The notes beneath the pieces were generated by a model. The model saw only the letters and a program-made list of their open reading frames with translations. It was not told where the DNA came from and made no database searches. Both the position numbers and the translations under genes were made by a program. This document shows, piece after piece, positions 16,770 through 60,501 of a stretch of DNA of 64,000 nt. How positions within the stretch are numbered: position 1 is the stretch's first letter; the number at the start of each line of letters is the position of its first letter. The DNA comes from Lunularia cruciata (taxonomy: Eukaryota > Streptophyta > Marchantiopsida > Lunulariales > Lunulariaceae), in NCBI GenBank assembly GCA_948567375.1, contig OX419758.1:44965473-45029472 (forward strand), in the 5' to 3' direction.

Positions 16770-17399
16770 TATGTTGTACCCACATTCTCTTTTTGGACAA
16801 GTTTTAAAGAAGAAGTGTATTTTTAAAACCAAATTGAAGCCTAATGAAGAAGAAAAAAGAGAATTGTGTGTTGAAGTAGACTCAAAGAAGTCAACTTTAT
16901 GTCAGAGGAAGAAGGACTCAAATTGGACTTATGGGGTGGTAGACTTGAAGTAAGTTTACTTTGCATTGGGATGATCAATCTGATCCAAAGAAACAATAAC
17001 AAATTTTTCTTAGGCCTAGCAAATAAACAAGGTATGCTAAAGAAAATAGCTACTTTAGGATAAAGATGAAAGTTGAGAGTGACAAAAATAGACACACAGA
17101 GTCTGTGAGTGTTAATTGAAGATCTAATAAAGAATAACCACAAAATGGAATGCTATAAGATTAAGACTTTGTCAATGAAGTTCTGAAATGTTGAAATGTT
17201 ATCCTATGCCTCTCAATAGTTTTCCTAAAGGAGCTAGAATCTTGGGGCCAGGCAAGGGTATGATCTTTCAAAGATCAAGAGTGAGGAAACACATGATGCC
17301 AGCAAAGGGTAGTTAGCAAACTCCTTCACTTGCAGTGAGGAATCTGGCAATTTAGAGATTAGATGTAGAGGCAAGGATCAAAGTTTTGAACAGACTTCA

Positions 17400-19417
17400 G
17401 ATCATGTTTTTGGCCTGGAATTGGAACTTGAGTTTTCCAGGTTTCATGGCAAAGATAGCCACTAGTAATTGTGAAGATGGCTCCAAGACCAAGGAGAAGA
17501 GAGGGAATATAGCTTGATGGATTGAGTTGGATGGAGACTCATGTTGGGAAGAGAAGCAAGGGATGTGGGAGGATTCACCTTCTACTAGAAGTGTGATCCT
17601 TTGGAAGAGACCACAAAGGTGAGGAACTCTTTCAATGCTCCTTGCACAAAGAATAGATACAAGGTAGAGAGTTATAAAGACCCAATAAAGCAAAGTATTT
17701 TTGGAGCTCTGATGGTGACGTTTAAGTCAGAGCAAACCACCTAAGAAATGAAGCAGCAGGTTGTGTTCTTTCACCAAATGTCTGCAAGAGAGAAGGTGAA
17801 TTAGGCAAAGTGCTTTCAACAAAGAATAGGGCAAATCATTAGGAATTGGAGAATGAACATGTCACCCTACTACTTTGTGCCATTTTTAGCCCACTTCTAT
17901 TTAGGATTGAATATTCTCAACTTGGAGGAGAAGGAGAAGATGGTGCCATACTTTCATCCGGATCTGCAATTAAATTCCAATACAGATGAGCAATATAACA
18001 TAACTCCAAGGGGGTGATGAATCCTTTGCCAAGATATGGTAGGATAAAGCAGTATTTATAAGTATCCCAAGGCCACTAAAGTTGGGTTGACCCAAAGAAG
18101 GAGTATTGCCAATTCAGCCATGAAAGACTAGAAGACTGAACCCAAAACAAGAAATGGTGATGGTGGACCTATTGTTGGATGCAATAGTGGAAGGAGAAGC
18201 CAAGTCTAAGTACAAAGACTTGGGAGAAGAAAAAGAAGAGATCATGTTATAGAGTAAGGAATCCAGCAGTGAGATTGATAGGGAATCCAAAGTATTGTAG
18301 TCAATCAAAGAAGGGGCTAAAGAAGATGATCAAGAGTTCCATGCACAGATTGAATGCATGGAAGGAGAAGGCCACCAATACTTGGAGTTGCCCAAGGTGG
18401 ATATACTAGAGGAGAGAGAAGAGGAGTCAGTGCTAGTGTTTCCAAGAGGAGCAAGATCAAAGATAGATCTACAGCTCGCAACTACAAAAACAAGTAAAGC
18501 TAAAGAGGAAGAAGAAAGCTTGGTGGGGATTAGTTTGAAGGTACAAAGATCAAGACTTTGGAATAAGGTACTAGCCATAGAATCGCCTACCAAAGCCAAA
18601 GATAGTCAAAAAGAGTGGATGAATTTAGAAAAGTAGAGTATTTGTTGAAGGTTGTTTTCCCCTTGTTGTTGTAGTTGATGCAGAGGAGAGTCTGAAGCAA
18701 TATCATCCTTAAGTAAAGGATGAATTACAAGTAGTGAAGTACTTGAGTGAGGAAATATAAGAGTTGAAGGAGAAGTTAACCCAAGGTGAGGAGGAAGCTG
18801 AAGTACTTTGGGCTGATGGGTTACTTTGGAGGAAGAGTTTCCATAACCTGCAAGAGAATTTTGTGAATCGTGGTGGTGAACTTGAATCATACGTCAAAGA
18901 ATTGAAGGATCAAAAGGTAGCATTCAAGAGGTTGAAGAGAGAATCCAATGACATGCAAATTGAAGCAGTACACTCCAAGGCAATTGTGATTGTAATGGAG
19001 CAGAAGTTGGAGGTCTTGAGATTGGTGGCAATAGAGAAAGACCAAGCCTAGCAACATGAGCTTGTAAATAGAAGTCAAGAAGGAGAACAATTGCGGGATC
19101 TGGTGAGAAGCACGAAGACTCAATGGATTCAATATGCAAAGGATAAGGAGACATTGAGGGCTATGAGGAACTATGAGGAAGAATTGAAAATGTATCATGA
19201 TGAGTTGAAGGCAGAGAGAACTCATGGGAATACATCAGAATCAGTAGAAGAGATTGTTAAAAGGATGAAGGTGATGTTGAGTATTGAGTCAGAAGTAAAA
19301 TTGGAGGAAGCAAGATTGCATGAATTGAAATTACTTGTGCAAGAGACAAGAAATAAAAAGCCAAAGGACACGGATATGAACAATTTGTTAATTTTTTCTG
19401 AGAGAGAGAGAGAGTAG
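17400..19417 (+). pseudogene. LTR-borne accessory protein frame, 3' LTR copy (decayed, unknown function)
   Basis: Inside the LTR, on the plus strand, a coding-like region of roughly 650 codons is broken by a few stops and frame changes. Block B at about 17882-17975 reads AHFYLGLNIL then EEKEKMVPYFHPD. It matches element 2 at 29287-29391 and LTR-3 near 59120-59190. After it come an acidic stretch (open 18358-18636) and a Lys/Glu-rich, heptad-like region predicted by eye to form coiled coil (open 18764-19051 and 19091-19417). I recognise no enzyme motif, signal peptide or membrane segment. The gene is not gag or pol, since those lie in the internal region. A captured host gene or an accessory retroelement gene are both possible. 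Confidence 0.65.
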
Positions 19418-19879
19418 ATAGGAAGATGATTGAAGTACAAGACAATGTGAGTCTTAGATTAGATTTAGTTAGATTAGAGTTAAATGAACTTTGCAATAGT
19501 GTGAAGGAAGGAAGTAAATGCAAAGTAGTTGAAGTAGGATTGTATTTTACTTTGGGTGAGTTACTTGAGTCAATTGAAGTAGTGAGAGCGGAGAAGGAGT
19601 AAGTAATTAGGATACCTATGACTTTAGTTTCAATTCAAACTGAAGATAGGATAGAAATAAGAAGAGATTGCACTAGTAGATGAAGCTAAAGTGCAAAAGG
19701 TGATTAAAGTTACATCAGTTGTAGAAGCCAAAGTAGAGGTAGACATTGGATCACGTAAGTAACAATTTTGAGATTTGAAGAGGCAGATATGAAGAAGTGG
19801 TATGTCATTTTGGATCTAAAGGTTGGTAAAGTAGTAGTTGAAGCAATTTAAGTATTTAGATAACTATCAGTGCTTTGCC

Positions 19880-19887
19880 TATTTAAA
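19880..19887 (+). promoter_or_regulatory. TATA-like site downstream of the LTR-borne frame
   Basis: TATTTAAA lies about 460 bp after the end of the accessory frame and 660 bp before the LTR end. Its counterpart in the 5' LTR is TATTTTAA at 10744-10751. It could be the promoter for the genomic RNA, which would put the accessory frame in U3. Sequence alone cannot fix the start site. Confidence 0.35.
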
Positions 19888-20552
19888 GGAGACATTTGCA
19901 ATATATTGTTATTCAATTCAATATTCATATTTTCAAATTTGAGTAAAGGAAAGTGTTGTAGCTCAATGCTCTTTGTTTTAGCTTAATTTTAAGTATTAAT
20001 CTTGTGTTTGTGTTTGTGAGTGTTTAGAAAATTCTGATTTGCAATCAAGGGTGTTAGATGTTGGATTTTGTAGCATTGATATTCATTTTGTGTGTTTGAT
20101 CTTGAATGAATAGCAATTGAAGCAATGCCTTGACAAATCTATGAAGAATGGTAATGTTGGTAGTATTCTTCATTTGTGATTACAATGTTGGATTGATGGA
20201 AAGCAATTTTGATGGAGGAAGTTGTGTCTTTCAATGAAGGAGTGGAACACAATTCTTAGGTGAACTCATTTCATGGTGAAGTAGCACTCTTTGAGAAAAT
20301 TGATCATCACAATAAAGATTGAATTGAAAAGGATTTGAAGACAAGTGATTTATTTGTGACAAGATTGCAAATTGAGCACTTTTTTCTCTCTTCTAGGTGT
20401 GATTTCTACCCAAGACTCTAAATATGCAACCAAGAAAAAAAAATGTGACTTTTACTTTATATTTTGCCATTTCTGACTTATATCTCTATGGGAATGAACA
20501 ATTACTTATTGGTTACCACAAAAGTGATACTTGCTAGGTTGTCACAACTTTT

Positions 20553-24614: not shown

Positions 24615-24920
24615 CTAGCTAGCTCATCTTAGGATTCTGTCTGCATGTTAATCACACATTTTGCATGAGAACAGTAGAAAAATCCGTGTTGAAAGCTTGA
24701 AGTCCGATAGACTGACCTACAATAAATCAAAGCAAAACAAAACATAAGACACCAAGAAAAAATGTGGTTTGAGAGTAGAAAAAACATGGCATAAAGAACG
24801 AATAGTTCGTTTTATCCTTGATGTGGCCCAAGGAAAACTTCAAAATGAGCACGTAGCTTTTGGTGAGCATGCGAATAGTTTTCAACGGAAAGGAGAAAGC
24901 GACACGTATTGGATAATGGG

Positions 24921-25030
24921 AAAAAGGCGACCGCGTAGGAAAAATCAAGGATGGGAAGACCCCATCAAGCCTTACAAGGGAGAGACAAAAAAGGTAACAT
25001 GGGGCTAAGCCCCAATAGAGTCTGTATGAG
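24921..25030 (+). repeat. Dispersed repeat R, copy 1
   Basis: Best-preserved plus-strand copy of a ~110-bp repeat with the order GGCGACCGCGTAGG, AAGGATGGGAAGACCCCATC, AGCCTTACAAGGGAGAGAC and GGGGCTAAGCCCC. It contains two possible hairpins (GATGGG/CCCATC and GGGGC/GCCCC). By eye it is about 90% identical to the copy at 53357-53461. It reads open through 24769-25008, but the repeat is found in both strands and frames, so I do not call a gene. Confidence 0.85.
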
Positions 25031-25084
25031 AAATCTGCACTACCCCACCTAAGATATCTGAGCTATGCAAGTAATACAGTTGTA
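25031..25084 (+). repeat. Extension of repeat R shared with copy 3
   Basis: The run GAGAAATCTGCACTACC and CACCTAAGATATCTGAGC after copy 1 recurs after copy 3 at about 26388-26430. The family is therefore longer than the ~110-bp core in some copies. Confidence 0.6.
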
Positions 25085-26124: not shown

Positions 26125-26278
26125 ACAGAGCACCCAAAAGGAAGACTAGATAGTGAAAGAGTGAAGAAAATATCTAGAGCAAAGTTCACCTAAGTCAAAA
26201 CATTCAGAAAGTTTCATTATGAGCACTTAAGAAATGTTGTCTTTATTGGGAACAAAAAGGCTACACTTTGAATAAGAA

Positions 26279-26435
26279 AAATTGTGACCACATAGAACAA
26301 ATGAAGGATGGAAAGACCCCATCAAGCCATACAAGGAAGAGACAAAAGAGGTAAAAAGGAGCTAGGTCCCAATTGGATTGATATGAGAAATCTGCCCTAC
26401 CGCACCTAAGATATCCAAGCTATACAAGTTGTAAG
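26279..26435 (+). repeat. Dispersed repeat R, copy 3
   Basis: Contains GAAGGATGGAAAGACCCCAT, CAAGCCATACAAGGAAGAGA and AGGAGCTAGGTCC, then the same extension as copy 1. The GGGGC/GCCCC hairpin is eroded here. Confidence 0.75.
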
Positions 26436-27916: not shown

Positions 27917-28423
27917 GGTAGTGTCACGACCCACTTTGTTATAAGCCCCCATTTTTTGTTGTTTTTTAATGTAAATAGTCCAAACCAAACGTTTGGAGGT
28001 GTCATTTGCAGGAGGTGTCGATTCATAGGAGGTTCTACTCTTACAACACAAAGATTTTGGGTACCTTAACTTAATAGACTCTGCATGCCTGCCCAACAAA
28101 AATGGGAATGGACTCATTTGTGCTCGGATCCTTTTTTTTCCATTCTATCAGGCTTTACAACAAGGATTCCCCAACAAAAAGAGCCACCACACTACAAGCA
28201 AACCTTGACTTCACAAGTTTTTGTGGAATGATGGGAGCCGTAATAACTTTTTGACAAATGCAAAAGTCATACAATTTTTTCTCTCATTTCAAGAACATGC
28301 AAAAAGATGCATATGCCGCCAAAGAACCATTGGTGACCATTCCACGCCCAATTGCATGCGTGCAATTGTGACCTTTCACCAACTACTACAGTGGAAGAAG
28401 GATAGATCCCACACCAATGGGTT

Positions 28424-28430
28424 TATAAAA
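28424..28430 (+). promoter_or_regulatory. TATA box upstream of the LTR-borne frame, element 2
   Basis: TATAAAA in the context GGGTTTATAAAAGGGCCC lies 500 bp into the LTR and about 130 bp before the accessory frame. LTR-3 has an equivalent TATAAAAGGCCGGCC. Confidence 0.6.
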
Positions 28431-28560
28431 GGGCCCAATCCAATGTGCAAGGCAAACCTTTTAATATTTTTCAATTTTCCTTTTCACTTTTCCCTTTTCA
28501 CTTTTCACTTTTCACTTTTCACTTTTCCCCTTTCTTTTGTATTTCTTGCATTTCTCTCTC

Positions 28561-31500
28561 CATGACAACCATCTCTTTTGACATCATGCCAGAATTTCCA
28601 GAGTAGACTATTGAATTTTTCAACAATGTCAAGAGCTTGGGATGTGAAAGCAAATTGGGGATTGCACTTTTGTGAAAATTCAAATATTCAATCATGACAA
28701 GATGAATACCCAAAGGAGGGGTAAAGCAAAGCAAAAAGAGGTGAGGCAATGGAAATCTTGAGAAAACCTCTCAAGATTTCTGAGTGGGGATTATACTATC
28801 AAACCAACTACATCAAGGAAAGAAAGATGGAATTCTTACTGTGGGATTGCGATCTTGTTGATGGGGCCATGTTGTAGGAAATTTGCAATAATGCAAAGAA
28901 TTTGAGTGGGAATTGTTACAAGGATGTCCCATGATATGGACAAAGGACCACTGGTAGCATGTATTGGATGAGGATTGCTCCTCTTTTGGGGAAGTTCATA
29001 TTGATACCCCACATGGCAAACCCAACAAACAAATGATGCATATAATTGATGACTTGTCTGGTGGGGAAAATCTACAAATAGGTAAAAGATTGAAGACACA
29101 AAGGACCCATTTTAATGCACTATCACCAAAATGATAATGTGGTTGTTTTGTTCAAAACAAAAAAGCTATGTCAATCAAAACCAGGCTATCTTCTCTTCCA
29201 ACTTGTACACCGGAAAAAGCCGATTAGTTGGACAAGGATGTTTTGAGAGTGAGTCATCAAGCTGCTAGAAAACATGACTGAAGGTTTTTTCACTATTTTG
29301 GTCTCCTTTATTATTCATTTCTACATTGGTATAAACTCCTTAATGGATGAAGAGAATGAGAAGTTTCCATCCCACCTGCATCATCCAAATTACTTCCGTG
29401 AGAACTCCAACTTGTCGAAGGAGATCACCAAGTCCCACAAAGCATATGAAGAATATGCCTTGAGTGGAAAATTTTCATGAGTGGTAGAGATAAACAATTC
29501 CATCATGATTTGATGAAAGACACCGGTGGCTCAAGCAAAGGTTCAAGCTTCCAAGAAACAAAAATGAGCTAGAACCTTCATCAAAAATAGCATGAGTAAA
29601 ACCACATCATTAAAATCAACTCAAAATGATGTCCATCATCAAGAAAGAGACCATCCAATGAACAAGTTGTGAGTATGAAGTTGGGGAGTGAGGAATCCTT
29701 CACACAAATTTTGTATCTTGTAGAGGACAAAGGCAAAGAAGGCCCAAACAACAAAGCATAATTGTTGCTCCAACTTAGTGACAATGAATTGATTCCAATG
29801 GGGAAGGAGATGATGCCAACTTTGGAACCCCTCCTAACCATTGCCACTTTGTTAAATTTTGGTTCCCAACAAGGAAAAAACTTCATGTTACAAAAATAAT
29901 TGTATACAAACAAAACAAACTTACCCGCTGTTAGATTTTTTCAAGGACACAAATGACAACGAGGTAGAGATAACACACCAAGGTCTGTAACACCCATATG
30001 TGCATGTGTGTGGTATTGTGATATTTAACTTGGTATTACAAGTACTTAAGAGATATTATTTATATAGAGATAAAGGATGGTTCTGTATTAGTCATGGTTA
30101 GCTAAAGTTAGTCATAGCTAGGATAGAGGGGACCTTACTTTAGAGGAAGTAGAAAAGATGAGCACCACTATTTTGGATTTTAGTGTGTTGACTTGGTATT
30201 ATTCCTAGGTGTTTGGCTTTGAGGAAAAAGTTGAGAACTCTTGGGCCCGCAAGCCTTTTTGTTTTGGATTCTTCTTTAGTCCAAGGATAGCCCATGTGAA
30301 GGAATCCTTGACTTAATGGTTGGATCAAGATAAGACCACATGCTTAGGGGAATATGCCCATGTGAATGGATATTCCTTTCTACTTTTTGACTTTACTTGA
30401 CTTTTAGTCTAGTAACTTGAGTTACTACGGTAATTAGTAACTTTGGTACGTAACTATTTCACAAGTATATAAACAAGGGGTGAAGAGGTACTCATCATCC
30501 TTTCATTTGCAATTATCTCTCTCTCATTGAGTTCTCTAGTGAGCAATGTCTTGAGTCTTGGAGTGTTAGCCTTGGAGGAGTATGATGGAGTTCGGGTTCT
30601 TTGCCTTCTTAGTCCATGGTGCGCTACCATAATAGCCATCAGAGGTTCATCCTGACTGAGAGACAGGCCGGCTCACAGGTCTGACAACCCCCAAGAAACA
30701 AACTCTTCTGTCTCCAAGACATGAAGGACTAGTAGATGGAGATGATGTCATTGCCAACACCACTCCCCCAACAAATGATAAAAAAGTGTGCAAGAACAAA
30801 GAACTAGCCCTGGCTCACAAACAAATAATGCAACCATCCCAAGCCATGACAAGAATCATGCATCTAAAATGAAGAAGGCCTTATGAAGACAATTGGGCAA
30901 GGATGGAAATTCTTTGCCTTGGCTTATAGTAGCATACACCGTCCACAAAGTGACACCGGTGATGAAAGGATTGGAAGAGCTTCTGCAAATATACCAAAGG
31001 TCAGATCCAAACCTAAAGGAACAAGCGGCTCTCATCTATCACTTGCATCATTGAGTCCAAACCCAACGGAATAAAAAGAACAAGGAAAGTTAAAAGTGCT
31101 TGGACAAGTTCCAAAGGGAGGAACTAAAACAGCAAGAGGAGTACAAAAAATTAATCCATGGCCTGAAGAAGAAGGTTGACAACTATAGGCTGCAAGTCTC
31201 TCACCAACAAACTCAACATGAGAAAGATATACAAAATTGGGAGGATAAACTCATTGTACTACAAAGCAAGTTAGAAATGACCTAGGCGGAAGCAAAGGCA
31301 ATGGAGATGCAATATGACAATTTGAAGCCATTGACTGACCTCTTCATCTCCAACCTACCTACCAACCTAAAATGGCAACAAGAAAAGGTGTTGGAACTAG
31401 ACAAGTAGATTTATTAGGAGATGACTAAAGAGTTGAGCACCAATAGAACCAAGATAGTCAACAAAGGATATGGGCTCCCCACCATTATAGGTCACGCAAC

Positions 31501-31950
31501 CACACAAATACTAAGTCAGTTGGAACACATGGACAACAAAATATCCCAAAAAAAGGCAAAGGACTTGCACAATAAAATTGATGCAATGGAATGGAAGTCA
31601 TACTAAGCAAATGAGCAACTCAAATTGTTGTCAAAAACTCCCAAGCCACACAAATGCCAAGTTCAAGGAGACCAAGTCTAGCTTCAAACAAATTATGGAG
31701 AGTTATTGAAAGGAGCTCTTGGACCTTGTTTGCATCTCCCAAGGAGTTGAGAGTTCAACCCAAGTCCCACTTGCTCCACCTATTGGAAAATAATGACATG
31801 AGTCTCTTCTTACAAAGATGGTTCCAGTCATTTTCATTGCCTAACAAGAATACTTCTTTTTCTACATGGCAACAACAACAAAAAATTTTTAGCCTTAGCA
31901 AGTTTGTAGATGTACGTAATGTGTAAATAGGTAACTTGGCCCAACTTATA
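28561..31950 (+). pseudogene. LTR-borne accessory protein frame of element 2 (decayed, unknown function)
   Basis: This is the same protein family as in element 1's LTR. Block A (28750-29050) reads YIKERKMEFL, VDGAM, DVPMIWTKDHW and VHIDT in two frames, and aligns with LTR-3 at 59500-59730. Block B (29287-29391) reads IIHFYIGINSL then DEENEKFPSHLHH. A basic linker, interrupted by the solo LTR, follows. Block C (30920-31000) reads PVMKGLEELLQIYQ and aligns with LTR-3 near 58210-58300. The C-terminal part (open 31100-31285, 31421-31606) is Lys/Glu/Gln-rich and heptad-like. No catalytic motif or membrane segment is visible. Several stops and the insertion inactivate it. Confidence 0.65.
29986..30677 (+). 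mobile_element. Solo LTR (692 bp), TSD GGTC
   Basis: It begins TGTAACACCCATATG, ends GGCTCACA and is flanked by GGTC on both sides (29982-29985 and 30678-30681). No internal sequence follows, so it is a solo LTR left by recombination between two LTRs. A promoter-like TATATAAAC lies near 30473-30482. The same LTR in the opposite direction is at 5044-5717. It sits inside the accessory frame of element 2. Confidence 0.85.
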
Positions 31951-32018
31951 TGTAGTATTAGCCTGTTCAAGGTAGACAATCCCTATCTTAGTTGATTACA
32001 TCCATGGGTACTTGCAAA

Positions 32019-32219
32019 GTTTCTTGGTTAGCTTGGCTTGCACTCTAAGAAAGTGGCTTTTAGGAAGTTTCTTGAGAAGCTTCTCAAGAGCCTTGTATGT
32101 TCCTTATAAATACAAAAACCCAAGCTCATACTAGAAATTCAGAGCTTTCATTTAAGAGTCACAATGTGATCTTCCGCTCCAATCTTCCATTCTCTTATTT
32201 CTCTCCTCACTCTTTTACA
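32019..32219 (+). repeat. 5' LTR of element 3 (5'-truncated)
   Basis: It matches the 3' LTR from GCTTGCACTCTAAG onward, including CTTCTTGAGAAGCTTCTCAAG, a TATAAATAC box at about 32107-32115, and the end CTTTTACA at 32219. The first part of the LTR is missing. Confidence 0.75.
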
Positions 32220-32220
32220 T

Positions 32221-32232
32221 TGGTCTTAGAGC
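32221..32232 (+). promoter_or_regulatory. Primer binding site of element 3 (initiator-Met type)
   Basis: TGGTCTTAGAGC lies one base after the LTR end and matches TGGTATCAGAGC at 10 of 12 positions. Confidence 0.8.
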
Positions 32233-32499
32233 AAGAATGGGATGGATAGAATTTATGGACCACCAAATCTATTTCTGAAAAGCCATTGGGGTGTTTGTAT
32301 CCATGTACTAACCATCATCATCTCACGCTTTGGGCAAAATTTTCTAAATGTGATTACCTTGTTTGATGAACCATTGGTACTTCATTTTGTAACTTATGGA
32401 CAAGGGTGGATGTGTTGCATCTACACATTTATGTGTTAACTTAGATAAATTGTAGGTAGTTTGATAGAGCAGTAATCATGGCGGCAATGACTAAAGTTA

Positions 32500-33410: not shown

Positions 33411-33439
33411 TTGATAAGTTCTAATGGTATTATGCAAGT

Positions 33440-44876: not shown

Positions 44877-46010
44877 AATGATCACCATCTCTTGTGACAT
44901 TGTGCAAGCAATTTCTAGAGCACACTGCCAATTTTTTCAACACTATCAGAAGCTTGGGATGTAAAATTGCAAAACAGAGTAGGAACTGCATTATTTTGCA
45001 AAATCAAATATTTAATCATGATGAGACAATCCAAAGGAAGAATCAAAGTTAAGAGAGGTGAGGCACGGAAATCTTGAGTAATTCTGTCAAGATTTCCAAG
45101 TGGGGATTATATTTTCAAACCAACTATATCAAGAAAAGAAAGATGGAGGTCAATTAGCTACTTCAAATTATCATATCATATCTCTATTGCCTTTACTTCC
45201 GGTTGGGTTGTTTCTAACTTGCTTCGTAGTGCTACTAAGTTTGTCTTCCCAATTTCATATTTATTCCTTATGTTGAGTTGTTTGGTGGAAGACTTGCAGG
45301 TTATAATTGTCAACCTCCTTCTTTAGGCCATGGATTAATTTTTGTACTCCTCTTACCATTGTAGTTCCTCCCTATAGAACTTCTTCAAGTGCTTCTTGCT
45401 TTCCTTGTCCTTTTTGTTTGTCTAGGTTTGGACCAAGTGATGTAAGTGGTGGATGAGTGCCATTTAGTTCCTTAGGTTTGGACCCAAGTGGAAGTAAAGG
45501 AAATAGAGATGCAATATGATAATTTGAAGTAGCTAATTGACCTCCACATCTCCAACCTATCTACCAACCTGAAACAACAATAAGAAAAGGTGTTGTGACA
45601 AGACAAGTGGATTTTTCATGAGATGACCAAAGAGTTGAGCACCGATAGAACCAAGCTAGACAACAAATGATCTAGGCTCCTCACCACTACAAATCATACG
45701 ACCATATAGCTATTAAGTCAGTTGGAATGCATGGCCAACAAAACTTCCCAACAAACAGAGGCAAAGGACTTGCACACTCAAATCAACATGCTAGAAAGGA
45801 AGTCATAATCAAATGAGCAACTCAAATTTTTATCTATGAAGCTCTAGAGCCACATCAATGCAAAGTTCAAGGAGACCCGGTCCAACTTTGAAAAAATTTT
45901 AGGGAGTTATCAAAAGGAGATCACAGATCCTTTTTGCATCCACCAAGGAGCTGAGAGTTTGACCCACGTTCCACCTGCTCCTCTTGCTGGAAAATAACAA
46001 GAGCCTCTTC
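44877..46010 (+). pseudogene. LTR-borne accessory frame of element 2, 3' LTR copy (rearranged)
   Basis: The start of the frame (ATGATCACCATCTCTTGTG at 44877) matches 28561 in the 5' LTR. From 45148 to about 45480 the sequence runs as the reverse complement of the part equivalent to 31070-31340. From 45490 the forward copy resumes and follows 31290-31790 of the 5' LTR. Blocks A to C are mostly gone. The frame has many stops. Confidence 0.6.
45148..45542. repeat. Inverted duplication inside element 2's 3' LTR
   Basis: Arms 45148-45200 and 45490-45542 are 53 bp each and match in inverted orientation at about 49 of 53 positions. The spacer between them is itself inverted relative to the 5' LTR. 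Confidence 0.85.
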
Positions 46011-46324
46011 CTTATGAAGATGGCCATAGTCATTTTTTTTCCTAATAAGGATACTTTGTTTTGTACTTGCCATCAGCAACTTTGTTTTCATAGCCTTAGG
46101 AAGTTTGTAGATGTACAGAATGTGTAAATAGGTAACAAGGCCTAACCTTTTCATAGTATTAGCCTATTTGAGGTAATTAACCTCTTACTGGGTTGATTAC
46201 ATCCATTGCTACCTGCCATTAGGTTTAGGGCTAGGATAAGATATGATCAAGATTAAGTGGTTGAGATGTAAGAAATTTCCATGCATTGTAGCCATTGGAT
46301 ATTTCCACTACCAAGTAGAATATG

Positions 46325-46331
46325 TATAAAA
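46325..46331 (+). promoter_or_regulatory. Second TATA box of element 2's LTR
   Basis: TATAAAA in TATGTATAAAAGGCTTAGGC lies after the accessory frame. The downstream sequence (GCTTAGGCATGATGTTCATT, then CCATTTGGTGCAT) is conserved in LTR-3 after CTATATAC, so this is a good candidate for the start of the genomic RNA. Confidence 0.6.
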
Positions 46332-47186
46332 GGCTTAGGCATGATGTTCATTGGGTCCATTTGGTGCATCTTCCTTTTGCAAGTAAATACAAAGTTTGGA
46401 CTATCAAGAATCATGAGTTGATATATGCGTACTAGTCTACCTTTTGAATGAATAATTGTATGCTTGACTTATTTAGGAGTGCCAAATCTTGAAGGACATA
46501 TCTAGGCATTGGACTGCAATGGTGTATTTTTACAAGACTAAAGAGTAGTTCTATAGCATTTTGGCCACAGTCAAGAATGATATGGGAATAGGCTTGCATA
46601 GCCTTGGCATCTTATCCAATAACACTCCAAGATAGGATTGAGTAGCACAAGTTGTTGCTAACTCTTGTGACTTTGTGTCTTTTGGGAAGGATATAACATG
46701 AAATTATGGTTGTAGTCTTTAGAGGGATGTAAATTCTAGAACCATTTCCACCCAGTTTAATTTGCAAAGTAACAATCTTCCTTTGTGCATTATTGTAGGA
46801 GAATGCTTTTCATAAACTCATGGCAAGGGTATTGTTTGACTTGTGGATCCTATAAGTATCTCCTTGTGCAGTTTGTGGCTTTGGATGGGCAATCAGTGAA
46901 CAAAATTGCTCCAAAACAAAGTGATCTTTGTTCCAAATGACCTCTTGATTGGACAATTTAGCATATAGGAGAATAGATTGCGTAACATTTTGTAATGTTG
47001 CTTGTTTGGATGACATTACCCTCTTTTGGGAATGACACTACCCAATAGGCTAAATATGAAATATAGATTGTCTTCATTGTGACCTCATATGTCTCATTTT
47101 AGCCATTTTCAACTCATATTCTCAAGGGAACTACCTGTTCTTACCAACTATAGTGTAGTAAGTTGACACTAAGTCACCACAAGTAG

Positions 47187-50100
47187 CTCAATATCCATCA
47201 TAGCTAAAAATAAAAAATGTAATAATACCATGGGTCTCACCACTTGGATTTTATTCCTTAGGGAAAGGTCAAAAGATGTTATTAAAAGTAAACATAATGA
47301 TTTATGTATAATTTCATAACTCCTCCATTCCTAACTAGCAAGATAATGCCTTAGCTAGAACAAAAGATTCAAAACCTAACCCATTTGTCCAAAAATGTAT
47401 GATAATCAGAAATTCTATCAAAGCTTAAGACTATTGATGTACATTAATTAAGAAACCATATGGGAGATGCTTAATCTTTTATGTCCTAACATTGAATTGG
47501 ATGATTGCAAGATATGTTATATATTAATCCCATCTTAAATAGAGATGAAGTTGCTCATGTACATTGTTCCATAATCCTTGCCACGAGTATAAAAAAATGA
47601 AGTACTCTTTGCAATGGTTTAATATTCATGAACCATCAAGATTTCTAATATCAAGCTTATACTTTTGAAAAGACCTAAAGTAAGAATATCAAATGATCAA
47701 AATGATCAAAACCTTAAGACTAGCAAATGAAAGTAAGAAAATCTAATTTATTTATGAATAAATACAAAAATCTTTAGATTGTGAAATAAACCTTGGTATG
47801 ATAATCATATACTAAAGGACCCATAAAAGTAGATTCTAGTGAATAATGGAAGATTACTACATCTAATAGCTTCAAGTTATCACCGACTAAAAATCAATAC
47901 AATATCAAGTAGGTACTCAAACAATAACTCATTTTTAAGGGATGTTTATTTTAGACTTGAAACCTTCAAATTTTGACCATAAGGAATGTGCTTTGGTAAG
48001 TATATTTTTTAAGATTGAGGAATATCATTCAAATTCATCAATATTTCACATTTTTAATAAACAAGAATTTTTCTTATTAAAGCCCTAAATGGGTTTATCC
48101 CTTGAAAGACTCCATCCTTATTCCTCCTCTACCATAATTTTTCATTTTAAAACTAAAGATTAAAATTTAGAGGGTTTGGTTCCACAATAACTTCTTTTAT
48201 TCCTGCTCTTTGATTTTCAAACACATATATAATTCTTTTCTCTGAAAAATTCCTTTTTCACATCCTGTGATTTTCTTACAAAAAATCAAAGATATTAAAA
48301 TAATTTTCATAAATAGAATTATAAAAAAATAATTACAAAAGTTTATAATTTTTAATAACCAATAAATTCTTGGCAAATATTTTTTTTTTCTGCCATGCAA
48401 ATGAGAAATCTACCTTACATTCTTTGATTCAAATCCAAACAACTCTAAGGTGCGTGAAATCATGATGTAAGATCTAGAACAACTACCACTCCTTACTCCT
48501 TACACATATTATTCAAGGTTAGATCTTATATGGCAACACAATCAAAGACAAAAATATTTCCTAAGAACACATTTAAGCTTGCACCAATAGTACCATTTTA
48601 TTTCTTCTTGCTTCCCAAATCCTCCATTATACTTTGGTTTCTACCACTTTTTCTTTCCTTTTCACTATAGGTTAAGAATCTTTTGTTGAATCTCCTACAA
48701 TTCTTAAGTACACAAGGCAACTTACAAGATTTTTTATTCACAACAAAAAAAATTTCCAACCTTAAACCTAACTCTTGGTAGGAAGTGCCTTTTTTACATC
48801 CTAGATTCTCTTGAAGACCTTCTCCATAATATGCTAATGTGCATATACTTGATATCCTGAATTTAGCTCATTCGGATCTAAAACTTTTACTCTATATTAT
48901 CATGTATAGAATATGCCTCTATTATGACAAGGAAAAGATAGATAAAGCATAAAAATGATACCAATGAAATTTCAAAAGTATAACATCTATCATATTGATT
49001 CCCATCCCCTTTCAAACAATATAACATCTATGTTGTTCCTTACATGTGAAAAAATGCTTGTATTGGGGTATGTAATACCAAAGTCTTTTGTTGGTATTAC
49101 ATCTTTAGGATAAACTACAACCACGGAAAACTTATGGATATATAAGTTGAGCTTCACTATCCTCTACACCAACAAAACAATAAAATCTCATTCAAATTTT
49201 GGATATAAAAGTGCAATTATTTCTCTTTTCCTAGCTAGTCAATGTGGAAGCACAATTAATATACTTATTGCCTATACCAAGCATCTTTTTTAGAAGCAGT
49301 ATATATCTTATATTTGTCAAACTTGTATAAGGATCTAGGCCTATCTTATCCAATTCTTGAACATCTTGTGCATGAGATAAAAGTGTTGAAAGTTACACTC
49401 ATTGAAAACCACTCAAATTGCTACCGAAACTGCTAGGCTATGACGAGACTCATTGTACTTCTAAAAATGGATATCCTTCTTCACCACTCATACGACATAT
49501 GCTCATTTCTCTTCTTCTTTGATGGGATTGCTTCCACCTCTTATGTGCAGTTTTTCACTTCCTTGGGAGTTTATGGTTCATCTTTCTTACTAACTTGTCT
49601 CTTCTACCTTCCTTCATCTCTATATCTACTTGTTTATTTTCTTTTGTAATGATTTCTATGTGTAATAGTCTCATTTTTTGACATCTTAGTAATGCACAAT
49701 ATGGTGCTTGACGAGGATGTTTTACTTTAATTCCAAGATTATTATTTTATGCTCCAAGTAATGAAATTTTGTGTATGCTTTAAAAGAAGATATCCATTAA
49801 AAGAGATAAAACATAAAGATAATATTAATAAATTAATTAAATTAATTATTATGTAATATGCATACAAAACACTTAGTACTTATTATCCTTGCACATACAC
49901 AGTCCCAAAATATGTTTAAAAAAAGCAAATGTATTATGTGTGCATAATGCGTAGCATAATTCATGTTATCCACAACATGAAAATTCTAATTTATTCTAAT
50001 TTTTTTCAAATTATTTATGTAAAATTAAAAGATTTAACTCTTTGCAATGATTTTCATAGAATTTAGCTTCTAGTAATCATCTTCGAGTAAGTATAAGATC

Positions 50101-51829
50101 ATGTTCTTCAAACTCACTTCAAAAAATATTCTTATGCCATTTACATTACATAAAATCTCAAAAATATATAATTTATGTGTTAAATTTGATTATGGTCTCT
50201 AAATCAAGCCAATTTGCACTTTTTTATTTATTTTTTCATTCAATTACCTCAATAAAAGTTGGTTGCATCCCCAAAACATCATAGTATAATTATTATGCAT
50301 TAAAAAAGGAAATCAAAGTGACTTGCATAGACAATACTATGAAAAATGAAATTCAAAAAATAGAGATATTAGATTTTTATGATTTATAGAAGAAATTATA
50401 TAGAAGACAAAAGTAGAAGGATTTTGCAATAGAAATAATTACAAGGAATCTTGTCACTTCCAACTATATTAGGCTAGGACCATCTATTTTCATGAGTGCA
50501 ATTCATGAAACAAAATAAAAAGAACTTTGAATTTTTATAGTAGAAAGATTTCTAAGGCATGTGGAATTAAAATATGTCAAAGAAGAATTATTGAAAAATA
50601 TCTTTGGAGTTACTGTGGCATATCTTATTCTTCATATTGAAAAATAGGAGATGAAAATTGAGTCTTTGTAAAAAAAAAAGTATGAAGGTTTACAAAAGAA
50701 TCATGGTAGAATTATCATTTTCCCACAACTCCAAGCTCTATGCACATTCTAATGCTACAAGTTGTTATTTTTATTGAATTTGCCTCATTAATTGGTTCAT
50801 GATTCAATTCTAATAGTACAATTTCCTAGTGTAAATATCTTTCTAAAGTTTCATTTTACACATTCAAAATTTTATTTTCATTATCTTATTATAATTAAAT
50901 ACAAGGACAACTTTAGAAGTATATACAAATATGCTTATAAAACTTTATTTCTCGTGCTTGAATGAAAATTATAAGTCTTTGACTTCAAACTTGTTGTAGA
51001 TTCTATTTCTTTACTTTTTGAGAGTTAAGAAAAAGGTGATTTTAAAGGGATGTGTAACTTTCTTACATACAAGGATATCTAAAAAATGACTATAAAGATA
51101 AGGTAAGATAATTCTATGTATTATTCTATATCCTTATAGAATGAAGCTCTACCTCAAAGTGCAAGCATCATCCATTGATAGGTAATATAGGTAATATAGG
51201 TAATATAGCAGACAACATTAAATAAATAAATAGACTCCAAGATCTCACTTCTAAATTTCCACAAGATCATTTTGTCTTCACCAACATATCACACACTACT
51301 TCCATCTTCTACTTTAATAAATATCCTTGACTAATAGAGATTCTAGCTTTAGCTATAATTAACCTAAGATAGTAAAAGCATGCAACATTTTACTCAAGGG
51401 TACTTAATTGCTCTATCTTTATATCCATCCTGATTTAAGATCATATAATTTCACCTTGTAAACTAATATATCAAAAAATAAAATTATATATATGACTTAT
51501 TTATTCTTCAAATGTACATGATGAAGTTGAAATTATTTTTGCTAATATTCTTGACATAACTATAGCTATCCAAGAGTATCAAGTTCTACAACTTCATTAA
51601 CCTTCTTGATCCATAATTAGTCTTACTAACCTTCAATTAGCCTTTTTAACTCTACAAATTATGAAGTAAGTAAAGTACCTTATCTTAATTTAGAAGAAAA
51701 ACTTGAATTTGGATAGATTGTTATCAAATCACTAATTTTTATTCTTAGCAATTAGATATGTAGACCACATAAAGAAATAGAACATATGTCACATGGTTTA
51801 GATGGTACTAGGAATAGAGAATCATGTTT
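47187..51829. other. AT-rich spacer; no gene seen
   Basis: Over 4.6 kb there is no frame longer than 70 codons and no recognised domain in either strand. A triple GGTAATATA repeat lies at about 51180-51210. Confidence 0.55.
49070..49102. repeat. Perfect 12-bp hairpin
   Basis: ATGTAATACCAA and its exact reverse complement are separated by 9 bases. Confidence 0.85.
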
Positions 51830-52105
51830 TAGCCATGAACTACAAAGATCAGAAAAGTTAATTCAAATCTTTAGAAAGTCTTAAGAAATGTAGAATGTTC
51901 TGACCATGAACCTACAAAGATTGAGAAATTGACAAAATCTTCATAAATTTTAGTGAACTTTGAATATTCTAGCCATGAACTACAAAGATTGAGAAACTAA
52001 ATATAAACTCTTGATAGATTTTAAGAAAATTTAGAATATTCTAGCCATGAACTACAAAGATTGGAAAAATTAATTCAATATATTGCTGAATTTTAAGGAA
52101 AGTGA
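51830..52105. repeat. Four-unit tandem repeat, period ~70 bp
   Basis: Units start at about 51830, 51901, 51970 and 52042, each opening with (T)AGCCATGAACTACAAAGAT or a close variant (the second reads TGACCATGAACCTACAAAG). The 3' halves are more diverged. Confidence 0.85.
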
Positions 52106-52124
52106 AAAAAGCCCATTGTAAGTG

Positions 52125-52151
52125 CTCTTGCAGTGCTTTGCACTGCAAGAG
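52125..52151. repeat. Perfect 12-bp hairpin with 3-nt loop
   Basis: CTCTTGCAGTGC, TTT, GCACTGCAAGAG. GC content is well above the surrounding AT-rich sequence. Confidence 0.9.
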
Positions 52152-53356
52152 ACAATTTAAGGTTAACAGTCTATTTTATAGAAATTAACAATTAAGGTTT
52201 TTTCAATAGTGAATTTTTTTGTCTAGTACCTATACTCCTGGATGAATGAGGTAAAATCTTTATTAATTTTTGAAGTATAGAATATTTTGGATTGTTGGGA
52301 CAACTTGGGACTAAGTTCTTTTATGTTTATTTTCTTACTTTGGGAAATATATAATTGATGGGAATTTCTATAAATGTAATTCACTTTGTTAGCTAAATTC
52401 ACCTTTTGTTTTCTTAAAATGCATATCTTAATACTTTAACTTGAAAGAAAACTATTTAAGTAGATTTTGATCATGATTCAACCCTATTCATAATAACCAC
52501 CTTGGAAGAAAGGTTAGTTCTTTTCGTGAAGTAAAGACTCAAAGAACATAATAAAGATAAATTTTGAAGAACTAGACTAATGAGAAAGATCTCTAATAAG
52601 GTTCTAACCTGATAACACCAACAACAAGGGTATAAAAAATAAAAATTACAACTAGTTAAAGGATTTCAAGGACTTCTAGAACTAACAACAGACGTATAAA
52701 AAACAAAGTCCAACTAGTTTTCAAGGACTTCTACAACCAAAATCTGAGAGAGCTTGGCATATACATGGAAAAATTTTGAGTTGTATGATTGTATAGTTAC
52801 GACTCTTATTAAATAGAATTACTTTAAGTATACGATTAACCTCTTCAATTATAATATGATAAGAATAAGATTATCATGAAGCTAGATTCAGATTATTGAT
52901 TTTACAGAAAATAAAAACCTTAGATTGTGGATTGACTTTCTGATCAATAAGATTCAAGCGTATGATTTGGAATTGAAATATAAAACGAGCACTAGATTCA
53001 AGTATTCTTTTAAATTATTTTGAGATTTAGTCTATGGATATATTAATATATATGGTTAACTACCATATAACTACTATCAATATACTCAATTAAAGGTGCA
53101 ATAAAAATCCAGGCATATATAATACATATATTGACTAACTATAAATTTATAATTCTCTCTTTTAGATAATTTTCTTTTATGTTTAGAAGATTCACTAATT
53201 ATCGGAAAATGTTAAGATCATTTGAATGTTTCAAACATATGTGCTACTCTTTTACAACTTAGGAAGCTTCCATGTTGATAAATAGGATTTTGTCGTAAAA
53301 CGACATCGAATTTGGAATTGATGTATGGATTTGAGGAAGATGAAATGATCAAAAGG
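52152..53356. other. AT-rich spacer; no gene seen
   Basis: No coding pattern. A local near-duplicate lies at 52610-52740, where CAACAAGGGTATAAAAA and CAACAGACGTATAAAAAAC begin similar ~60-bp stretches. Confidence 0.45.
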
Positions 53357-53461
53357 GTACAGACTCTACTGGGGCTTAGCCCCATGTTACCCTTTTCGTC
53401 TCTCCCTTGTACGGCTTGATGGGTCTTCCCATCCTTCATTTTTCCTACGTGGTCGCCTTTT
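53357..53461 (-). repeat. Dispersed repeat R, copy 4
   Basis: Minus-strand copy, nearly the same as copy 1 end to end, including GGGGCTAAGCCCC, AGCCGTACAAGGGAGAGAC and GGCGACCACGTAGG. Confidence 0.85.
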
Positions 53462-54077
53462 AGTAGTAGATAACCTTCGGAGGAGAGGTCTATATCAGAA
53501 CAAATAAAATTCAATCGCTGTAATGCGTTGTATCTCCAAACTGTCTACCAGTACGAGAATCGACCAGCGGGTCTTCCTAGGCTTTATCATCACATCTTGG
53601 TAGCCTACATAATTTCCGCGTGCTCATCAATCTCGTCCAGCGACAAGATTTAGGACCGGTAGACGCGTGAATCTCCATAGCATGCCCTTGAGGGCCTCGA
53701 TTTCCCGTTTGATTCCCGGCGCCATCTGCAGTCTTCCAGAGCATCCAATGTGGGGTACCAGGGTACGGTAATTTCAAGCCTCTCCAGTATTATGGTAGCT
53801 TGAACACAACATTCATCTCAAGAAGCTACCAGCGTTCTAATCTACTCTTGAATCTCTTTAATAAGAAAAGTCGTAATGTTTTGATCACGTAAACAACGGG
53901 CAGCGTTCTACGATCGGTCAGATCTTCGCTTATTCTTGATCCGGAATACAGTATAACCTCTAGAGTATACCCGATGCTCCTATACTCTATCTAAGAATAA
54001 TGGACTGTACTTGGACTGATGGGGAAAAGAAATCTCTATTAGTGGGAAGAAAAGTTTGCTTGATAGATTATCATACT
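53462..54077. other. Spacer with higher GC than its neighbours; no gene named
   Basis: A 66-codon minus frame (53577-53777) has balanced amino-acid composition but no motif I recognise. CpG is not depleted here as it is in the retroelements, so this could be younger or less methylated DNA. Confidence 0.35.
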
Positions 54078-54184
54078 GATACTATTGAGGTTTAGCCCCA
54101 TGTTTTCCTCAAACGTTTTATTCCTCTACGGCTTTATTGGGGTATCCTTCCCATCCTTGTTATTGTACGCGGTCGCCATTTTAC
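54078..54184 (-). repeat. Dispersed repeat R, copy 5
   Basis: Order as in copy 4 with insertions: GGTTTAGCCCCATGTT, CTCTACGGCTTTATTGGGG, CTTCCCATCCTTG and GCGGTCGCC on the plus strand. Confidence 0.75.
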
Positions 54185-54535
54185 ATTATTGGAGAAAAGT
54201 TTGTCATGATGGACAGAGGAAATTGCAAAACTCACGACATACATCTCTTACACGAAATCTGCAAACCATTTGTTTTCGTAGACGAGGAAAAACATGTAAA
54301 CGTTCCAGTAAATACCTTTGAGAAGCAATACAAGAATATGTTTTACATTAGGCATATATTAATGGTGGTCTAGTTACGGCATAATCTCTCCACCAGATAA
54401 ACTTCAAAGACTTTGGTGTATTGGAGGACTTTCTCGGCAGAACTCTCGTTCATTAAACTTAGTATTTGTTATTTAAATGCCAATGTCAAATTTGGTTGTA
54501 GGGGAAAACCGATAACTGAGTAGATTGGTCTGTGG

Positions 54536-54600
54536 AAACTATTGGGGCTTTGCCTCATATTACTTCTTGTGGTTTATCCTTATACGGTTTGATGATTATT
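54536..54600 (-). repeat. Dispersed repeat R, copy 6 (partial)
   Basis: TATTGGGGCTTTGCCTCAT and TTATACGGTTTGATG match one end of the repeat. The GGCGACC end is missing. Confidence 0.6.
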
Positions 54601-54760
54601 GCTGTGATATAAATAAAAATTCGATTAAGATGATCGAACTATGAAAAGTTACCAAATGAAAAAGGGAAATTGAGCCAAACAAATGTTATATTTTTCCACA
54701 GTGTTCTGCATAAAGTAGCCACGTATTAACCTCTATTGCACAAAGTGGACTAAAAAATAG

Positions 54761-54907
54761 GGACTTGCTATTTCCACCACCTTTTTGCTCTTTCCAACAC
54801 AACACTATAAATTAATCGACTCTAAACTAGTCTCAGCGCTGAGCGCTGGGGTTTGGGGTTAAATGTGGTGGAAATAGTTAAAAGTGTGGTGGAAATAGCA
54901 ACTCTCA
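54761..54907. mobile_element. Small foldback (MITE-like) element
   Basis: The left end ACTTGCTATTTCCACCACC (54763) faces the right end GTGGTGGAAATAGCAACT (54886), giving roughly 20-40 bp inverted termini. The right side carries an extra GTGGTGGAAATAG copy. The centre holds the palindrome TCAGCGCTGA (54832-54841). No clear target duplication is visible. Confidence 0.5.
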
Positions 54908-55204
54908 ATAAAATTCTCCAATCCAAGTCTCAATTGTGCTTTTGCGGGTCTCGTCAACATGCATACAATATGGAGAAGGTCAACATATGAATAAAAATAA
55001 TCGATTATTCAAAACATAGTTTTTGTTTATAATTAAAATAGATGTTTCTCCGGACTCAATAAAATACTCCAATCCAAGTCTCAATTGTGCTTTTACGGGT
55101 CTCGTCAACATGCATACAATATGGAGAAGGTCAACATAGGAATAAAACTAATCAATTATTCAAAACATAGTTTTTGTTTATAATTAAATAGATGTTTCTC
55201 CGGA
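54904..55204. repeat. Recent tandem duplication, period 151 bp
   Basis: Units 54904-55054 and 55055-55204 both run from CTCAATAAAATxCTCCAATC to GATGTTTCTCCGGA and differ at only a few positions. Confidence 0.95.
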
Positions 55205-56604
55205 AGTGTTTGCTGATTACGCACTTTAACCCTTTGGAACTACGCTCGCCAACACACACACGATTAAGAATTCTGGAGACTCTAAATGATCATCCGTTGT
55301 TTTATGTATGACTTCTCTTCATGATACAAGTTCCATCCAAGAATTACTTGATAAAAGCCCCGATTTGAAGTCACCTGGAGTAGTTGTAATGATCACATAG
55401 TACATTCGGAAAAAGAGATAAGGAAAGAAATGTTCTCATTCATCTTATAGAACTGCTTGAATCTACAAACATCAACTACAGTCACACCAATATACTCCAT
55501 GCACGCCAGAAGCGTCATCCACCTAGATGTAAAGGCGATGAAGACATTCAGGCCAATATAAAGTAGTTCCCTGTCATTCACTTCCTAACTTTTTGTTATT
55601 CCTTCATGGCGACATTTCCTCCTCCCATATGCCTCCTAAACACGAAGATCATTAAAAATATGACCAAATGAGTGAGTTGTATCCACCCACATTATAGTTT
55701 TGGCATGAACAGCAGCTGTGCCCCTATGGCCATCTTCACCACCCTTGTGAGTTTTGATCTTCCTGAAGTATCGTATCACAATCCGAATAGAATCGAACTC
55801 ACTTTGATTCCGATTCTTTCAAATCGAGAATTCCTCTCGTCTGCTGTAGAAAAGGTTTGTTCATTGCGTGGAAGATGGGAATGAACTGGATTGCGCGCAA
55901 CAAGAAAACTTTCGGACGAGTGTCGTAGTCGAGAAGAAATGTCCTTTATAATCTTGACTCCAAGAAATAGATTGTTACGAATTGTTCTCGCTCTTGTGGA
56001 GTTTCTCTTCCCCGTCTAGCTGCAACACCACGTGTGCTGTGGTCTCCGATCCGGGCAAAAGGCTAAGGTTACATCTAATGATGAGTCCGTTACGGTACAG
56101 TTTGCCGTGTCTAAAGATATATTGTCTAATTATATAAGCACTGTAAAAGTATATGCTGCTATGTTTACTTACTCGGGAACAAAGGAAAATGACCCCGAAT
56201 GTTTCAAGTATAAAATTTTCTCCAAAAATAAAAAGTCGTGTTTTATAATTTTCTTTAAAGACATATAATCATATTTCATCTACAAAATATTCGAGTAAAG
56301 ATTAAGATTTGACTCTCTAAACCAAAAGTATATTTATTGGACATTATTTCATTTGACTAGAATTTATGCTTCTATGTTTCCACTTTGTTTCTAACTTATA
56401 TTTATTATTGTGGAGGAAAATTTTTTTTAAGATGCCAATGTTTGTAATAAGTAAATATAATTTCTCAAAAAAGAATGCTTTTTCCACTATAAAAACACCA
56501 AAATTCAGAGTAAAAGATATATTTTTGATGCACTTAATTTAACAAAGGTGTATATCAATTTATTTTTAATTTAAATGAGAATTAATAAGGTAAATTTCTG
56601 CATT
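55205..56604. other. Spacer; no gene named
   Basis: Open frames of 62 to 78 codons (55393-55581 minus, 55672-55884 plus, 56032-56268 plus) have no recognisable motif. The part from 56270 on is AT-rich. Confidence 0.4.
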
Positions 56605-56925
56605 ACTGTGTCCTGACCATCTATTAGCAACCTCAAAGTCTCCAGTACTCCATGAGAGGAGACAGACTTCCACCATATCCATTACAATATAGTTCTTGGT
56701 CTATGTAGAGCACCTAGAGGTCCACTCTCTAATTCCACATGAATGATTCCTTTGCTCTAGTGCTAAGTCTACTACACCAAGATTCCTCACAACTAAGTGA
56801 CTAAGTAGGCAAAAGTTCATACTGGGAGTAGACACATACACCCACTTGTAGTCTTGATGGTATAACCTTGTTTATATTAAATAAATAATGCACCAAATGA
56901 ACATAGTAAACATAAGGTCTAAGCC

Positions 56926-56933
56926 CTATATAC
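56926..56933 (-). promoter_or_regulatory. Second TATA-like site of LTR-3
   Basis: GTATATAG on the minus strand, followed by GGCTTAGACC, is the counterpart of TATAAAAGGCTTAGGC at 46325 in element 2. Confidence 0.45.
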
Positions 56934-59849: not shown

Positions 59850-59882
59850 CCTCCCTCCCTCCCTCCCTCCTTCCTTCCTTGC
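59850..59882. repeat. CCCT/CCTT microsatellite
   Basis: TCCTCCCTCCCTCCCTCCC followed by TTCCTTCCTT, within the start of the LTR-3 accessory frame. Confidence 0.9.
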
Positions 59883-60008
59883 TTAGCTTTAGCATTCTTG
59901 CACTCGAGTTTGTAACAAATCTTGGACAATGGTTCAAGTATTTCATACACGAGAAGAATGAAAAATGACAAAAAAGTGAAAAATAACTTCTTGCAGGGTG
60001 GGCCGGCC

Positions 60009-60015
60009 TTTTATA
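60009..60015 (-). promoter_or_regulatory. TATA box upstream of the LTR-3 accessory frame
   Basis: TATAAAA on the minus strand within CTATAAAAGGCCGGCC, about 480 bp into the LTR and just before the reading frame, as in element 2 (TATAAAAGGGCCC at 28424). Confidence 0.6.
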
Positions 60016-60501
60016 GATCCACCTGCCTGGTTGCTCCTAAGCTGTCCTGACAGTCAGCAAAGGGTTGTGGTTGAATGGCTCATGTACGAGTCCCTTGCAT
60101 GAAACTGTTCTTTGGTGGCGCACCGCAAGTTATAGACTTTTGAACTAGCGGCAGAATCACGTGGAACCTTGTTTTGACTGAACCTTATGGATCTGCAGCT
60201 CATACAAAGGAGTTTTGCAAACTTCTGATATTATCGTGAGCCATCTCATACCGAAGTCCTCATTGACGTGGTTTGTTCAACACAAATAGGGTATGATAGG
60301 ACTTCCATGTTTTTTGGTCCTGGTAGGAGAATATTGGTATTTGTTCTGGAAACTTGTAATCAGCGGGAGGTTCGTTGAGCCAAATTCAGACTTTGTTAAG
60401 GACGGAGCACTAACTAATCATTTTATCCTTCATAGTACTATCCTATTATTGTCTATTGTCTAAAAGTGAGACAAAAAGGAAAAGTGTGTAGTGACAACTG
60501 G

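Follow-up and report, generated by a model that had tools for sequence, protein, structure and literature searches.

The long terminal repeats (LTRs) of three retrotransposon insertions in Lunularia cruciata carry a decayed coding frame on their sense strand, and there is little doubt that a gene under selection was formerly present in these LTRs. Our analysis covers a 64,000-nucleotide (nt) stretch of contig OX419758.1 (the window, to which all positions refer). Self-alignment of the window reveals two Ty3/gypsy elements with paired long LTRs, E1 (8309-20546) and E2 (27922-47181); the third insertion, L3, is a solo LTR on the minus strand (60496-56609). With a probability of about 60%, we propose that this retrotransposon family has an accessory protein gene within its LTRs, which would be located in the U3 region under its own promoter and laid out like the sag gene of mouse mammary tumour virus (MMTV). 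Such a place is unusual for a gene, because LTRs are normally control DNA: plant LTRs are treated as non-coding, and end-repeats normally hold control signals only. The original prediction had described a protein family encoded inside these LTRs; the observation is confirmed by our analysis, and its interpretation is supported.

LTR borders and the shared coding frame

The LTRs of all three insertions are unusually long (about 2.9 to 4.3 kb). Those of E1 (8309-11429 and 16772-20546, plus strand) enclose an internal region at 11430-16771 and are flanked on both sides by the target duplication ACTTT. Those of E2 (27922-38234 and 44264-47181, plus strand) enclose an internal region at 38235-44263, and their flanks, GGTAG and AGTAG, differ by one base. 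The LTRs of both elements start with TGT and end with CA, except for the 5' copy of E2, which ends with TA. A primer-like stretch (TTTTTGGCAT..) lies directly 3' of each 5' LTR, and a purine tract directly 5' of each 3' LTR. L3 measures 3888 nt, starts with TG and has CAGT at either flank. It had been claimed that the borders are fixed by target duplications, primer sites and purine tracts, and the paired LTR alignment, the TG starts and, for L3, the CAGT flanks bear this out. Both elements are old copies, because their LTR pairs diverge by Kimura two-parameter distances (K2P) of 0.21 (E1) and 0.25-0.29 (three segments of E2).

The LTRs were read in three sense frames and then compared with a frameshift-tolerant codon aligner, for which the 5' LTR of E2 was used as two queries, part a (blocks A and B) and part b (block C). 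E2 and L3 are alike over most of the length of the frame, that is, in blocks A and B (E2, 28720-29480, plus strand; L3, 59060-59745, minus strand) and in block C (E2, 30774-31780, plus strand; L3, 57310-58434, minus strand). E1 shares only one domain with them, block B, of about 100 residues, which is found at 17622-17999 (plus strand) in its 3' LTR, with two stops, and in decayed form at about 9179-9545 in its 5' LTR. Three-frame reading recovers the frames and blocks at the places where they had been predicted.

The frame-aware scores are 443 for L3 against part a of E2, 257 for L3 against part b, 131 for L3 against E1 and 128 for part a against E1; the maxima of 20 block shuffles per pair are 56, 70, 54 and 55, respectively. 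When both sequences are reverse-complemented, the same four pairs score lower (246, 103, 95 and 72). A profile built from block B of E2 and L3 finds block B of E1 with E = 1.4e-13, compared with 0.31 for the reversed sequence and 0.017 for the best of 60 shuffles. The blocks therefore align well above shuffles, block B across all three insertions and blocks A and C between E2 and L3 only, as had been stated. The further claim that all LTR copies carry the frame holds for four of the five copies in the window, as judged by block B (both LTRs of E1, the 5' LTR of E2, and L3), and fails for the 3' LTR of E2.

This 3' LTR is rearranged, as had been noted; we add that the 5' LTR of E2 is broken as well, since both a repeat of 695 nt and a nested LTR element interrupt it. 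The 3' copy lacks the part at 28832-31005, although block C persists in it at its end (45481-46000). The place that in the 5' LTR is taken by block B within some 2.2 kb, insert included, is occupied here by an inverted segment about 340 nt long (45141-45482), bounded by inverted copies. The 695-nt repeat (29984-30678) is 87% alike to a copy at 5043-5719 on the minus strand and resembles a solo LTR or a short element. The nested element (about 32017-37365) is inserted near the downstream promoter-like site described below and has LTRs of its own of about 203 nt (K2P 0.18), a reverse transcriptase match at 34301-34639 and, as far as the eye can tell, a Met-type primer-like stretch after its first LTR.

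Border misjudgement is frequent in decayed elements, and behind a misplaced border the frame could be gag or another internal gene. We compared L3, the two parts of the 5' LTR of E2 and the 3' LTR of E1 with both internal regions on both strands, with three shuffles each. The 16 scores (41-63) lie within the range of the shuffles (44-62). The sole pair more than 10 points over its three shuffles is part b of E2 against the E1 internal region on the plus strand (63 v 44), a marginal score beyond which no match to gag or pol of the internal regions was found. Because these scores stay within the shuffle range and the borders rest on the paired alignment of the LTRs, on TG..CA ends, target duplications, primer site and purine tract, we rejected this explanation, which is hardly credible. 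Outside the internal regions, scores 8-11 points over shuffles were taken as chance: part a of E2 against the nested element (62 v 51) and against 60500-64000 (58 v 47), and part b against the minus strand of the nested element (55 v 45). The stretch 47190-56600, read on the minus strand against L3, gave a frame score of 69, with a maximum of 61 among three shuffles, and this is probably chance too.

E2 and L3 are much closer kin to each other than either is to E1 in block B, and block B is all that E1 has in common with them. Its charged frame poor in proline and glycine (18692-19417, plus strand; 242 codons with four stops, including the last) is unalignable to E2 and L3 in the sense frames. 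Both facts would suit two captures, by which the ancestor of E1 and the ancestor of E2 and L3 each took a host or element gene of the same family into the LTR; this course of events is compatible with the other readings but seems unlikely to us. E1 and E2 have pol in common, and their primer sites and the joins between pol and purine tract are similar, so that one shared layout is simpler, and no free-standing relative was found in the protein database, which seems to be without this plant group.

Past selection on the encoded protein

Mismatches were counted by codon position in a DNA alignment that is blind to amino acids, using only columns whose phase matches the codon path. Between L3 and E2, mismatches in blocks A-B amount to 107/298, 97/297 and 183/297 at the first, second and third positions (36, 33 and 62%), and those in block C to 124/241, 77/243 and 143/242 (52, 32 and 59%). 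The LTR pair of E1 served as the neutral control and gave 177/978, 137/976 and 176/970 (18, 14 and 18%). The bias among codon positions in the E2-L3 comparison shows that a protein was under purifying selection in the past. Because this bias is found between E2 and L3 and not in the LTR pair of E1, we take the frame to have encoded a selected protein before the copies died.

When codons are aligned by amino-acid score, the proportion of synonymous differences (pS) between E2 and L3 in blocks A-B is 0.91, and that of nonsynonymous differences (pN) is 0.34. Such an alignment favours a low pN, and we relied on the position counts instead. Between LTR frames, pS is saturated (0.79-0.91), so that no ratio of nonsynonymous to synonymous rates (dN/dS) was obtained. 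In three pieces of LTR pairs, dN/dS was 0.76, 0.31 and 0.47; this estimate is biased or noisy, because values below 1 appear in LTR pairs that are expected to drift freely.

The decay of every copy, and the fact that E1 has a single domain in common with the others, would also suit a passive passenger, i.e. a functionless gene fragment or unrelated element that was caught in an ancestral LTR and whose likeness between copies reflects common descent only. A passive passenger, however, would not keep its code through such divergence. In blocks A-B, the third-position mismatch between E2 and L3 approaches double the values of positions 1 and 2, and pS also far exceeds pN; block C shows almost the same factor relative to position 2, but the third position is only slightly above position 1 (59 v 52%). 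The E1 LTR pair is without any such codon-position pattern. We consider a passenger very unlikely.

Two further observations concern the frame itself. In an open-frame test, the stretch of 232 open codons in L3 (58164-58862, minus strand) was equalled in 0 of 300 dinucleotide shuffles, and 200 codons with one stop in the 3' LTR of E1 likewise in 0 of 300. The tandem duplication within block C of L3 (57664-57888) has a period of 114 nt, i.e. 38 codons, a multiple of three.

The protein would begin with an N-terminal part, followed by block B (the conserved domain, about 100 residues long) and a linker, and would end in a charged C-terminal region; it is probably mostly helical. In the C-terminal parts, charged residues are abundant, and proline and glycine are scarce. 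A periodicity of 3.3-3.8 residues lies above shuffles in block C of E2 (1/500) and of L3 (3/500). After block B follows a short basic stretch, SKKQK, which is kept in E2 and L3; a stretch of this type would be in keeping with a protein of the nucleus, by analogy with what is reported for gene23 of Grande (PMC7264820).

Searches for relatives gave little. Pfam named no family above its cut-off for the LTR pieces submitted, and none for block B; weak scores for Porin_3 (0.043), URGCP (0.013), DUF4657 (0.048) and Phage_terminase (0.053) were set aside. A profile search of the PDB with block B only returned no match, and 600 pattern matches in viral contigs included no relative. In the protein database, the profile of all blocks drew 6090 candidates, none at E 0.01, and that of blocks A-B drew 1505, none at E 10, the plant group seemingly not being covered in either search. 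This silence says little, because the integrase piece of E1 drew two candidates and no match either, and the plant group seems to be absent.

Promoter-like motifs and placement within the LTR

Two TATA-like stretches, one upstream and one downstream of the frame, are alike in E2 and L3. The upstream promoter candidate (P1) lies at 28424-28431 on the plus strand of E2 and at 60008-60015 on the minus strand of L3, at LTR offsets 503 and 482, respectively; the 3' copy of E2 has an altered version of it. The downstream candidate (P2) lies in the 3' LTR of E2 at 46325-46332 (plus strand), in a stretch conserved with L3 at the DNA level. Its counterpart in L3, at 56925-56932 (minus strand), comes from the alignment and was not listed by the motif scan; in E1, the scan places a candidate at 19880-19887 (plus strand). 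In a blastn comparison of L3 with the start of the 5' LTR of E2, its end, and the whole 3' LTR (with the A-C part of the 5' LTR left out), the P2 stretch alone aligns (E 8.4e-9 and 1.5e-5), and twelve consecutive bases of it are identical in three copies. Most simply, the gene would sit in U3 under its own promoter and be followed by the genomic promoter; on these motifs, such a placement is fairly probable.

On whether the frame lies wholly in U3, the two sites pull apart: the upstream site would suit a placement in R/U5. The gene would then be just as real, P1 would be the genomic promoter, the protein would be the first cistron of the full-length RNA, and R would be very long. The likeness of the P1 sites of E2 and L3 at offsets 482 and 503 suits this placement. 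A very long R also has a precedent in rice: for Retrosat2, whose LTR measures 3.3 kb, a TATA box close to the start of the LTR, just past nucleotide 212, is reported together with an R about 2 kb long (PMC3485330). The downstream stretch, however, favours U3. It follows the frame, includes a second TATA-like site and, among the pieces compared, is the non-coding DNA with the best alignment between L3 and E2; moreover, E1 shows the downstream site only. As a general matter, gag translation would suffer behind a leader of about 3.5 kb whose first cistron is long. We regard the R/U5 placement as somewhat unlikely.

For the preferred placement in U3, with P1 at the LTR start before the gene and P2 at the LTR end behind it, we infer the following transcript units, action, origin and function. 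A transcript would run from P1 to the polyadenylation site of the same LTR, which would make every LTR, solo LTRs included, a complete gene. Reverse transcription puts the U3 of the 3' end into both LTRs of each new insertion, and the gene would thereby be doubled at each insertion, the 3' end being the source of its renewal. Its protein is probably a trans-acting factor of the element and may work in the nucleus. Many plant elements have a further gene behind pol; if the purine tract moved to the very end of pol, such a gene would have ended up in U3, and this may be the likely origin. The last pol frame (E1, 16744-16951; E2, 44237-44402) crosses the purine tract and is open for 59 and 45 codons, respectively, into the 3' LTR.

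Several observations weigh against this reading of an accessory gene that lies in U3 under a separate promoter. The motif scan gave no P1 site for E1 and listed none in its 5' LTR, and it placed two more TATA-like sites, at 57943 and 57371, within the frame of L3. Block B is absent from the 3' LTR of E2, which has the inverted segment instead. Sense-frame comparisons of the C-terminal region of E1 with block C score 48 and 52, below the 50-shuffle maxima of 55 and 63, and homology of the two was rejected because these scores fall within the shuffle range; the antisense scores of the same pieces, 69 and 66, exceed the forward shuffles and are taken as low complexity. The open-frame test stands out in only two of six LTR pieces (not in the 5' LTR of E1, the two parts of the 5' LTR of E2 or its 3' LTR). 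The antisense strand of the E1 3' LTR is nearly as open, with 125 codons, and with two stops in 200 codons where the lowest shuffle has three. The residue periodicity is not above shuffles in E1 (82/500), and an off-frame reading of L3 gave 14/500; the structure model of block B, with four helices at a predicted local distance difference test score (pLDDT) of 48, is too weak for use. All copies are dead: the alignments of L3 with E2 in blocks A-B and C contain 35 stops as well as 16 frameshift events. The sample is just three insertions in one window, among which no intact copies were seen. Lastly, the pol frame of E1 has a stop nine codons before the last part that is alike in E1 and E2, and the extensions of the pol frame inside the LTR are dissimilar between the two elements. 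The origin by a shift of the purine tract is for these two reasons a proposal with little support.

Lineage, known systems and meaning

The internal regions hold pieces of pol. In E1, 15901-16326 has a weak Pfam match to rve (E 2.6e-6; 28.1 bits, below the cut-off of 32.6). In E2, 42295-42603 matches RNase H above the Pfam cut-off (E 1.9e-10), and the frame at 43335-43682 aligns with the integrase piece of E1. The reverse transcriptase and the order reverse transcriptase-RNase H-integrase were judged by eye only, on the E1-E2 alignment. In an amino-acid-guided alignment of E1 and E2, mismatches by codon position are 30, 25 and 70% for integrase and 28, 27 and 70% for RNase H, which, on this alignment, is the pattern of selected genes. 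There is no room for an env-like gene between pol and the 3' LTR, because the pol alignment of the two elements extends nearly as far as the purine tract. Elsewhere in the window, a dispersed repeat of 100-160 nt occurs at four sites (24909-25072, 26268-26429 and, on the minus strand, 53358-53461 and 62259-62355; the listed pairs are 80-93% alike), and 54904-55204 is a tandem pair of a 151-nt unit, 96% alike.

To our knowledge, the LTR as the place of an extra retrotransposon gene is so far known from MMTV sag and, in part, from nef of the human immunodeficiency virus (HIV). MMTV sag is a sense-strand gene in the LTR U3 of an animal retrovirus, and its product is a membrane superantigen. The frame described here resembles it in being on the sense strand of the LTR, upstream of the genomic promoter (on the preferred reading), and copied into both LTRs; unlike Sag, it looks helical and charged. 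The analogy fits the layout and rests on promoter-like motifs. The Pfam scans of the LTR pieces submitted named no Sag family, and no sequence comparison with Sag was made.

Among plant elements, a tRNA-Asp-type primer site is described for Calypso and Diaspora of the Athila lineage (PMC1142308). The putative primer site of our elements resembles it but is degenerate, being identical to a tRNA-Asp motif, by eye count, at 12 of 18 positions in E1 and 10 of 18 in E2. Diaspora also resembles them in its long LTRs and in having no env-like gene between pol and purine tract, for which it is a known exception in the Athila lineage; unlike here, the Diaspora paper reports no further lengthy open reading frames (ORFs) besides gag-pol (PMC1142308). 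For Gymny, an Athila-related gypsy element of the gymnosperm Pinus, only part of a putative 5' LTR is described, and the passages concerned mention no LTR gene (PMC2633040). Retrosat2/FRetro3 of rice likewise combines LTRs of more than 3.2 kb with an extra ORF; unlike our frame, this ORF0 is not placed in the LTR by the sections consulted, and the one on the LTR names regulatory signals only (PMC3485330). The additional ORFs of plant elements (gene23 of Grande, ORF4 of Retand, RIRE2, and the env-like ORFs of Athila and Bagy2) resemble the frame in encoding an extra conserved protein outside gag-pol that is kept across family copies. They differ in their position: a review assigns them to the internal region, for the most part to the interval from pol to the 3' LTR (PMC7264820), and here the frame lies between LTR start and LTR end. 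A large survey of plant elements sorts extra ORFs by their position relative to the polyprotein, and none of the expressions 'in the LTR', 'within LTR' or 'in LTRs' occurs in its main text (PMC6317226). The original prediction knew of no described protein family of this kind in plant LTRs; our literature search, which had most subscription papers outside its scope, likewise found no report of one among the papers listed.

Solo LTRs are usually mere scars. The chances seem evenly balanced that a plant Ty3/gypsy lineage made its LTR self-contained, with promoter, selected gene and terminator, such that solo LTRs spread and keep the gene of the element. If genes can reside in very long LTRs, solo LTRs would be possible sources of element proteins, and a shift of the purine tract would be a route by which extra proteins of plant elements enter the LTR; this may also be a partial answer to the unexplained length of some plant LTRs.

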